Source: Anaerolineae bacterium (GTDB lineage Bacteria; Chloroflexota; Anaerolineae; 4572-78; J111). Taken from it: a stretch of DNA of 34,149 bases. A model generated the notes under the pieces. It saw only the letters and a program-made list of their open reading frames with translations, was not told the origin of the DNA and made no database searches. Each line of letters starts with the position of its first letter. The first letter of the stretch is position 1. Where the stretch lies: NCBI GenBank assembly GCA_016931895.1, contig JAFGDY010000154.1, positions 1-34,149 on the forward strand. The letters run 5' to 3'. Positions 24,909-29,099 of the stretch are shown here, one piece after another. The translations under genes and the position numbers were made by a program.

Positions 24909-24937
24909 TTGACATCTATCTTTACCTGTGTTAAGAT
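24909..24937 (+). promoter_or_regulatory. Promoter of the ilvBN attenuator
   Basis: A perfect TTGACA (24909-24914), 17 bases, then TAAGAT (24932-24937). The predicted start near 24944 gives a 55-base leader to the regulatory peptide and about 305 bases to ilvB. Confidence 0.78.
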
Positions 24938-24998
24938 ACCGGCTATTACAGTAAGGTTTGTAATTTTTAGCAGCATCAATCAACGGCAGATAATCCAA

Positions 24999-25088
24999 AT
25001 GATGAACTTGCTTGTGGTCGTAGTTGTTGTACTTAGCCTCCTCCTTGTACTTATTAACAAGGGGGCGTTTGCTGCTGGCACTACCTAA
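24999..25088 (+). CDS. ilv leader (attenuator) peptide, 29 residues
   Basis: A short open frame (ATG at 24999, or the adjoining ATG at 25002; TAA at 25086-25088). Residues 4-19 contain 7 Leu, 7 Val and 1 Ile; the only other residue there is a Ser. Its run of six consecutive Val codons uses all of GTG, GTC, GTA and GTT. Such runs are the mark of attenuation leader peptides, where the ribosome stalls when charged Leu, Val or Ile tRNA is scarce. The Shine-Dalgarno is weak (GGCAGA some ten bases upstream). The peptide probably has no function after translation. An alternative reading as a tiny membrane protein is less likely because the reading frame overlaps the antiterminator helix. Confidence 0.85.
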   Translation: MMNLLVVVVVVLSLLLVLINKGAFAAGTT

Positions 25089-25154
25089 CCGACCACAACC
25101 GGACATCAATTAACGCAAAAAAACGCCTCCTACCTCAAAGGAGGCGTTTTTTTT
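25040..25154 (+). promoter_or_regulatory. Transcription attenuator of ilvBN (mutually exclusive RNA helices)
   Basis: Helix 1:2 pairs 25040-25048 with 25057-25065 (9 bp, one G-U). Helix 2:3, the antiterminator, pairs GGGGGCGTTT (25061-25070) with AAACGCCTCC (25121-25130): 10 bp with one G-U. Helix 3:4, the terminator, pairs 25121-25130 with 25140-25149. Segment 1 lies inside the Leu/Val/Leu codons of the leader peptide (25038-25052). A ribosome stalled there would cover segment 1, free segment 2 to pair with segment 3, and let transcription continue into ilvB. With ample Leu/Val/Ile the ribosome moves on and the terminator forms. Confidence 0.85.
25117..25154 (+). terminator. Attenuator terminator hairpin
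   Basis: A perfect stem AAACGCCTCC/GGAGGCGTTT, extended by further A-U pairs, with a 9-base loop (25131-25139) and eight T's (25147-25154). It lies 28 bases after the leader peptide stop and about 95 bases before ilvB. Confidence 0.9.
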
Positions 25155-25248: not shown

Positions 25249-26964
25249 ATGGGAGAAATCAAAACCGGCGCAGAAATTGTGTGGGAGTGTCTTATCCGCG
25301 AGGGAGTTAAGGTGGTATTTGGCTATCCCGGCGGAGCGACCCTGCCCCTTTACGATGCGCTCACCAAGTATCAAGACAAAATAAAACACGTGCTCACCCG
25401 CCACGAGCAAGGCGCCACCCACGCCGCCGACGGCTATGCCCGCGCCAGTGGCAAGGTGGGTGTGGCCATGGCCACCTCCGGCCCTGGCGCCACCAATATG
25501 GTTACCGGCATTGCCACGGCGATGATGGACTCCTCGCCCCTGGTGTGCATTACCGGCCAGGTAGGCACGGCGGCCATTGGCGGCGACGCCTTTCAGGAAA
25601 CGGACGTGACCGGCGTCACCCTGCCCATCACCAAACACAACTATTTGATCGGCAGCATTGAGGAGCTGGCCGAAAGCATCCGCGAAGCCTTTTTCATTGC
25701 CCGCACCGGCCGGCCCGGCCCGGTGCTGATTGATATCCCCAAGGATATTCAAAACCAAACCATTGAGTTTGAATATCCCACCGAGCCAATTGACCTGCCG
25801 GGTTACCATCCCCCGGCCAAAGCGTCCGACGAAGCGGTGGCGGCGGCGCTGGAAATGATCAACAACGCTGAGCGGCCCGTGATCTTGGCCGGTCACGGGG
25901 TGATGATGTCGGGAGCGATGAAGGAACTGCGCGAACTGGCCGAAAAAGGCTCTATCCCGGTTACCGTGACCCTGTTGGGCATTGGCTGCATGCCCGATAG
26001 TCATCCTTTTAATATTGGTATGATGGGTCACCATGGCGAAGCCGCTCCCAACCAGGCCATCCAGGAAGCCGATCTGCTCATTGCCTGCGGCATGCGTTTT
26101 GACGACCGAGTGACCGGCAATCTTAAAACCTATTCCCCCAAATCCAAAAAAATTCACATTGATATTGACGCCTCTGAGATCAACAAAAACATCCGGGTTG
26201 ACCTGGGTATTCACGCCGACCTGGGCGCGGTACTCCGGCAAATCAACCCCGGGGTCACCGCCCGCAATCGCGCCGAATGGTGGGGCAAAATCAAAGACTG
26301 GCAGGAAGATTCCAATGAACGAGATATTTTGCAGGCTCAAACCCCCGTCTTGATGGCCGCCCAGGCTATCCGCGCCATCTGGGAAGGCACCGGTGGCCAG
26401 GCGGTGGTCGTCTCCGACGTGGGCCAGCACCAAATGCTTACGGCCCAATACTATGACCACGAGGAGCCTTACACCCTGCTCACATCCGGCGGTCTGGGCA
26501 CAATGGGCTTCAGTTTGCCCGCGGCCATTGGGGCCAGCTTTCACGTGAAAGACAAAGAGGTATGGGTGATTGTGGGCGACGGCTCCATTCAAATGACCAT
26601 TACCGAATTGGCCACCGCCGTCCAGGAAAACGCCAACATCAAAATTGCCATCATGAATAACGGCTACCTGGGCATGGTGCGCCAGTGGCAGCAACTCTTC
26701 TACGAAGCCCGTTACACCGAAACGCCCATTTTTAGCCCCGATTACGTTAAATTGGCCGAGGCTTACGGCATGCCCGGCTATCGCATTGAAAAAAAGGAAG
26801 ACATTATGCCCATTATGCGTCAAGCTCAAGCCCACCACGGCCCCGTACTGATAGAGTTTGTGGTAGAGCAGCACGATATGGTGTACCCCATGGTCCCTGC
26901 CGGAGCCGATTTGCACCAGATGCTCCGCCGGCCTCATCCCAGATTTGAAAACATGGAAATATAG
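25249..26964 (+). CDS. ilvB: Acetolactate synthase large (catalytic) subunit
   Basis: Makes acetolactate from two pyruvates, or acetohydroxybutyrate from pyruvate and ketobutyrate; thiamine diphosphate, FAD and Mg dependent; first common step of branched-chain synthesis. The 571-residue length is usual. Glu53 in TRHEQGATHAADGYAR activates the thiamine. The first half also shows GYPGGATLPLYDAL and GRPGPVLIDIPKDIQ; the thiamine diphosphate motif starts with GDGSIQM at 443 and ends with NN. The ATG has AGGAG seven A's upstream. It lies behind the attenuator described above and 13 bases before ilvN; the two subunits are clearly co-transcribed. Confidence 0.97.
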   Translation: MGEIKTGAEIVWECLIREGVKVVFGYPGGATLPLYDALTKYQDKIKHVLTRHEQGATHAADGYARASGKVGVAMATSGPGATNMVTGIATAMMDSSPLVCITGQVGTAAIGGDAFQETDVTGVTLPITKHNYLIGSIEELAESIREAFFIARTGRPGPVLIDIPKDIQNQTIEFEYPTEPIDLPGYHPPAKASDEAVAAALEMINNAERPVILAGHGVMMSGAMKELRELAEKGSIPVTVTLLGIGCMPDSHPFNIGMMGHHGEAAPNQAIQEADLLIACGMRFDDRVTGNLKTYSPKSKKIHIDIDASEINKNIRVDLGIHADLGAVLRQINPGVTARNRAEWWGKIKDWQEDSNERDILQAQTPVLMAAQAIRAIWEGTGGQAVVVSDVGQHQMLTAQYYDHEEPYTLLTSGGLGTMGFSLPAAIGASFHVKDKEVWVIVGDGSIQMTITELATAVQENANIKIAIMNNGYLGMVRQWQQLFYEARYTETPIFSPDYVKLAEAYGMPGYRIEKKEDIMPIMRQAQAHHGPVLIEFVVEQHDMVYPMVPAGADLHQMLRRPHPRFENMEI

Positions 26965-26977
26965 GGAGGAATGAATC

Positions 26978-27502
26978 ATGAAACAAACCTTAATTGCCCA
27001 AGTGGAAGACAAACCCGGCGTGTTGAATCGGGTGGCCAGCCTGTTTCGCCGCCGCAACTTTAACATCCAGAGCCTGGCCGTTGGCCACAGCGAAACGCCC
27101 GGCGTCAGCCGCATGACCATTGTCACCGACGAGGAGGAATTGTTGCGGCGCAACGTCATTCGGACCAACCTGCTCAAACTCATCAACGTGATTGATGTGC
27201 AAGACGTTACCGAGCAGCCGTGCGTCATCCGGGAGACTGCCCTGGTTAAGATCAAGGCCGGCGCCTCCCAACGCGGCCAGGTAATGGACGTGGCCGAAAT
27301 GTATCGCGCCCGCATTGTGGACGTGGCCACCGAAACCCTGATTGTGGAAGTGACCGGCGAATCCAGTAAAATTGAATCGCTCATTGGCGTGCTGGAGCCG
27401 TTTGGCATTTTGGAAATCATGCGCACCGGCCAAATTGCCATGACCCGCGGTGTGGTGCTGCCGCGCAACGGCTCCGGTTCTACCGGCAACGGCAAGCATT
27501 AA
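26978..27502 (+). CDS. ilvN: Acetolactate synthase small (regulatory) subunit
   Basis: Activates the large subunit and gives valine feedback inhibition. The 174-residue protein has an N-terminal ACT domain (about 1-78: VEDKPGVLNRVASLFRRRNFNIQSLAVG) and a C-terminal ACT-like domain (about 80-160, ending with VLEPFGILEIMRTGQIAMTRG), the standard long form. The ribosome binding site GGGAGGA sits seven bases before the ATG and starts at the ilvB stop codon. It is followed by a stem-loop that may end the ilvBN message. Confidence 0.96.
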   Translation: MKQTLIAQVEDKPGVLNRVASLFRRRNFNIQSLAVGHSETPGVSRMTIVTDEEELLRRNVIRTNLLKLINVIDVQDVTEQPCVIRETALVKIKAGASQRGQVMDVAEMYRARIVDVATETLIVEVTGESSKIESLIGVLEPFGILEIMRTGQIAMTRGVVLPRNGSGSTGNGKH

Positions 27503-27515
27503 CCCATGATCGTAG

Positions 27516-29099
<1,584 letters not shown>

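Follow-up and report, generated by a model that had tools for sequence, protein, structure and literature searches.

A predicted leader-peptide attenuator before ilvBN in an Anaerolineae bacterium, and its counterparts in Chloroflexota

Leader-peptide attenuation has long been described chiefly from Proteobacteria and Actinobacteria (PMC2965389), and a comparative study has proposed that attenuators arose in gammaproteobacteria and were transferred only a few times (PMC3766115); leader-peptide attenuators have already been predicted in other phyla as well (PMC10272879). In Corynebacterium, the ilvB-II motif or ilvBNC attenuator (PMC10272879; for C. glutamicum, PMC11857589) has a Leu/Val/Ile-rich ORF before ilvB together with a terminator and an antiterminator, as does the element that we describe here, but its upstream ORF usually has 15–17 codons and it belongs to Actinobacteria. 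The ilvB-OMG and Leptospira ilvB motifs (PMC10272879) share with our element predicted Leu/Val/Ile-rich upstream ORFs before ilvB. T-box leaders (RF00230) also respond to uncharged tRNA through a choice between terminator and antiterminator, but they read the tRNA directly, without a translated leader. For Chloroflexi or Anaerolineae we found no report of leader-peptide attenuation in the literature searched, and an earlier prediction may exist (Lopatovskaya, Seliverstov and Lyubetsky 2010, Mol Biol 44:128).

The DNA considered here, which we call the window, is the whole stretch of 34,149 nucleotides that makes up contig 154 of a 6.06-Mb genome. Its nearest named relatives are Anaerolineae and Chloroflexi MAGs, and a genome of the same genus, in which ilvB is split across two contigs (L047, L055; 93–95% identical), is an Anaerolineae MAG, in keeping with the Chloroflexota source that a preliminary description had thought probable. 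We are highly confident in the computational prediction that the element in front of the ilvBN operon is a ribosome-mediated (leader-peptide) transcription attenuator.

The element and its operon

The preliminary description had proposed a promoter, a 29-codon leader, three helices and eight T's, and every one of these is present where it had been placed (Table 1), the U-tract of the terminator being the T's at 25147–25154. Within the leader ORF, 15 of the 16 consecutive residues of LLVVVVVVLSLLLVLI are Leu, Val or Ile, the same count as had been claimed. The three helices, proposed to be mutually exclusive, pair without a single mismatch (G-U allowed), and through their shared segments the 1:2 hairpin excludes the antiterminator and the antiterminator excludes the terminator. 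The fold of the leader RNA beats 200 of 200 dinucleotide shuffles (z = -4.5), and the terminator, with 15 pairs and a 7-nt loop, was caught as the 3:4 hairpin by a custom script, having been missed by the generic terminator pattern of our sequence scan. Its position between the leader ORF and the first structural gene fits the attenuator class, and the short ORF, with its run of codons for the operon's own amino acids, is predicted to be translated, as a leader of this class would be; no Shine-Dalgarno sequence is evident upstream of the leader start.

Table 1. Features of the predicted attenuator and its first genes, with the valS counterpart in a related genome
Feature	Position	Strand	Details	Basis
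Promoter	TTGACA 24909-24914; TAAGAT 24932-24937	+	17-nt spacer; extended TG 24929-24930	sequence scan
Leader peptide ORF	24999-25088	+	29 codons, MMNLLVVVVVVLSLLLVLINKGAFAAGTT (stop)	ORF translation; Leu/Val/Ile-rich equivalents in relatives
Predicted control codons 11-18	25029..25052	+	V L S L L L V L	constrained-folding model
1:2 protector hairpin	25040-25048 with 25057-25065	+		pairing check; homologue hairpins; synonymous-shuffle test
2:3 antiterminator	25061-25070 with 25121-25130	+		pairing check; covariation; synonymous-shuffle test
3:4 intrinsic terminator	25117..25154	+	core 25121-25130 with 25140-25149	folding, pairing check, covariation
ilvB, first gene controlled	25249..26964	+	acetolactate synthase large subunit	TIGR00118, 728 bits, cut-off 538
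ilvN	26978..27502	+	acetolactate synthase small subunit	TIGR00119, 166 bits, cut-off 57
Leader and terminator before valS (L182)	G008:C54:1-2600		leader 146-217, terminator ~269-301	leader ORF and terminator; R1 match

The proposed target is borne out by the matches of ilvB and ilvN above the family cut-offs. On the 3' side of the attenuator the order is ilvB, ilvN, a ketol-acid-reductoisomerase (KARI)-like gene and leuA, with ilvC on the upstream side, and we infer that ilvB and ilvN are on the same transcript and that the whole run as far as leuA forms a single one. The second KARI-like gene (27546-29099, 517 residues) scores just below the TIGR00465 cut-off, at 214 bits against 226, and with it KARI genes flank ilvBN on both sides. 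In front of ilvC the window showed no leader, and a 20-residue leader candidate upstream of leuA was rejected, there being no terminator after it. Matches to the amino-acid leaders of Rfam (Thr_leader, Phe_leader) were also rejected, since the best of them reached 28.5 bits against a cut-off of 55 and none occurred in 40 homologous loci; these weak matches are probably driven by the terminator.

Predicted switching by a stalled ribosome

RNA polymerase would start near 24945, and a ribosome would then translate the leader. With charged Leu and Val tRNA plentiful, this ribosome should run beyond segment 2, and once it is past, or if none is present, the 1:2 hairpin would hold segment 2 and the 3:4 terminator would end transcription at about 25154. 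With charged tRNA scarce, the ribosome is expected to stall at codons 11–18 and cover segment 1, whereupon segment 2 could pair with segment 3 ahead of the emergence of segment 4 and transcription would continue into ilvB. The operon is very probably switched on when Leu, Val and Ile run short.

To model stalling, 29 nt were blocked as the footprint of a ribosome and the RNA was folded as far as segment 3, an equilibrium treatment with no kinetics. The probability of the antiterminator, P(2:3), is 0.91–0.98 in this model for stalls at codons 11–17 and 0.68 at codon 18, and it is at most 0.02 for stalls at codons 3–10 or 19–28, or without a ribosome. The earlier claim that a ribosome stalled on Leu or Val codons frees the antiterminator consequently holds in the footprint model for codons 11–18, mainly Leu, and fails for the Val run at codons 6–10, which lies too far upstream, making Leu probably the main sensor of the window leader. 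With the ribosome parked on the stop codon, P(2:3) is 0.97 in the window, and many homologues likewise favour the antiterminator under equilibrium, so that termination in plenty requires either that 1:2 forms first or that the ribosome is quickly released; with 1:2 forming before segment 3 exists, a ribosome at the stop codon is a possible source of basal read-through. Homologues mostly respond to modelled stalling alike, L010 and L041 fitting the position rule poorly, and the ribosome-free RNA favours 2:3 in 5 of 17. Leu, Val and Ile are enriched at the modelled switch codons (odds ratio 6.8), a figure that we set aside as proof because the run of these residues is mid-leader anyway.

Termination would also yield a free RNA of about 210 nt, and this RNA or its peptide might act in trans as well as in cis, like peTrpL of Sinorhizobium meliloti (PMC7298713). 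We consider this additional role unlikely, the peptide being unconserved outside its control run.

Recurrence and conservation at the RNA level

A comparison with relatives, which the preliminary description had put forward as a check, comes out in favour of the attenuator. The leader test asked for a short ORF with at least 8 of 12 residues Leu, Val or Ile and a terminator no more than 90 nt after the ORF, and of the 68 Anaerolineae regions 39 have such a pair upstream of ilvB; the opposite strand gives 0/68 and Markov shuffles give 0/340, so that the pairing of leader and terminator before ilvB is far above chance expectation. A TTGACA-like promoter scoring at least 9/12 lies upstream of 73% of the homologous leaders, as against 10% of shuffles. 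The element is absent directly before ilvB in 29 of the 68 regions, several of which have it at the operon head. Indeed, a covariance model (R1) built on families f1 and f3 has matches at E < 1e-7 in 11 genomes, which belong to nine families other than these two, with a Leu/Val/Ile-rich leader detected at 9 of these 11 loci, six before an ilvD-like start. Several R1 matches sit 1.7–2.2 kb 5' of ilvB, ahead of a gene with such a start, which means that at least some of the apparent absences represent a changed operon head. The overall R1 tally, 58 of 100 genomes, is an upper bound in which terminator-only partial matches are counted. A similar test in other families of the phylum, beyond the class, found leader and terminator in 14 of 40 regions and none on the opposite strand, a few of the 14 being weaker elements, either long or distant from ilvB. 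These comparisons support the view that the design recurs through Anaerolineae and other Chloroflexota classes rather than being a lone import from enterobacteria, much as the preliminary description had suspected in proposing that it evolved or spread outside the Proteobacteria.

The covariation that had been proposed as a second check is also found. Across 17 loci, 96.3% of antiterminator cells are paired, with double changes at two pairs and a covariation score reached by 3 of 500 shuffles; for the terminator the figures are 97.3%, five pairs and 0 of 500. A change of GCG to GTA in segment 2, for example, is compensated in segment 3 fully in L009 and partly in L008. Each of the 17 order-level loci has a 1:2 hairpin of 8–11 pairs, and in most cases the 5' arm overlaps the Leu/Val/Ile codons that come immediately before segment 2; MAFFT left segment 1 unaligned because loop lengths differ, and 1:2 was therefore compared by script, without a covariation count. 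When codons were shuffled synonymously in 12 representatives, the real 2:3 helix beat nearly all alternatives (Fisher p = 1e-11) and 1:2 was favoured (Fisher p = 1e-5) except in L003, L007 and L008, these p-values overstating independence because the loci share ancestry. Codon choice favours the antiterminator more than the peptide alone demands.

All of this bears on the notion that the hairpin merely ends transcription from ilvC upstream and that the small ORF is an accident. It is true that the last base of ilvC, 24783, is only about 330 bp 5' of the hairpin, but there is a promoter in the interval from ilvC to the leader, the pair of leader and terminator recurs before ilvB, ilvD and valS, the null rate in the ilvB comparison is 0/340, and the antiterminator both covaries and outdoes its synonymous-codon alternatives, leaving this explanation very improbable. 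Just as hard to sustain is the proposal that the hydrophobic peptide has a function of its own as a small (membrane) protein, with the terminator incidental: a Leu/Val/Ile-rich stretch is present in every relative with the element, but the leaders range from 20 to 55 residues with no conservation of the peptide outside that run, and in the f1/f3 set the peptide tail KGAF/KEAF doubles as the antiterminator strand. Differences between sister leaders show no excess at third codon positions (58/60/58), so that the substitution pattern gives no sign of coding constraint while the RNA pairing is conserved. Control of the terminator by a metabolite-binding riboswitch or a T-box is hardly credible: T-boxes are common in these genomes, yet the Rfam search gave nothing above cut-off in the whole window, a T-box (RF00230) before ilvB included, or in 40 homologous loci, two tRNA genes aside, its weak matches up to E = 10 contain no T-box and no ilvB-named family, and no conserved aptamer-like block is evident between promoter and leader.

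Possible re-use of the attenuator and comparison with known systems

The predicted attenuator stands beside T-boxes, which are present in 58 of the 61 genomes searched. The window's own genome has five, before thrS, trpE, serS, valS and a trpB-like gene, the last judged by eye. Of 13 valS loci from the family and order, 10 have a T-box that scores above cut-off, and neither T-box nor leader was found at those of G004 and G021. The valS of G008 is preceded by a Val-rich leader, MLLNFNPVVVNVVVVLVSFLPER, and then by a terminator of the ilvB-attenuator type (R1 E = 7e-12), with no T-box within the 361 bases 5' of the gene or elsewhere in this 80%-complete genome; here valS carries a Val-rich attenuator in place of a T-box. 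That codon content follows the gene, Val-rich before valS, is the best functional evidence short of experiment, and the exchange offers a natural experiment on the replacement of one regulatory logic by another.

R1 gives one strong match in each of ten f1 genomes, and extra matches are confined to G004, where a second ilvB is preceded by two copies in tandem, and G008, where they stand before a second ilvB and before valS; the lone ilvB paralogues of both genomes have Ile-rich leaders. We lean, if only slightly, towards regarding the Chloroflexota attenuator as an old, re-usable module beside T-boxes, which would have been copied within genomes, had its codon run retuned (Val-rich for valS, Ile-rich for lone ilvB paralogues) and replaced the valS T-box in the G008 lineage.

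Tandem pairs of leader-terminator units stand before ilvB at L049 (G004:C1) and L025 (G028:C512); both leaders at L049 are Ile-rich, and the ilvB there, a second copy, has no evident ilvN next to it. A similar leader and terminator precede a small protein of about 140–150 residues at L178 (G036:C241) and L181 (G071:C242), the L178 copy, which was the one searched, having no NCBIfam match. At L180 (G030:C88:26700-29500) they precede an ORF that starts ilvD-like (MRSNTV) and then diverges, again with no NCBIfam match. The IlvB of Neomarinimicrobiota (L038-L051, L057, L058) is 64–74% identical to that of the window, a likeness that suggests gene transfer between phyla, and no attenuator leader was found at those ilvB loci, so that gene and attenuator would have travelled separately in that case.

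Among known systems, ilvL of E. coli K-12 (ilvXGMEDA operon) resembles the window in its Leu/Val/Ile-rich leader, MTALLRVISLVVISVVVIIIPPCGAALGRGKA, and a terminator 20 nt past the stop codon, and the same script finds its layout alike, which agrees with the enterobacterial ilv/leu design that had been recognised at the outset. It differs in its helix sequences and first gene, and it scores only 13.5 bits against R1 (E = 0.034), leaving common descent without support. The predicted mechanism is that of the enterobacterial ilv attenuators and is already known; the Chloroflexota instance has no Rfam match. An attenuator conserved across Anaerolineae and in other Chloroflexota classes, in genomes that also have T-boxes, speaks for origins that are older or repeated.
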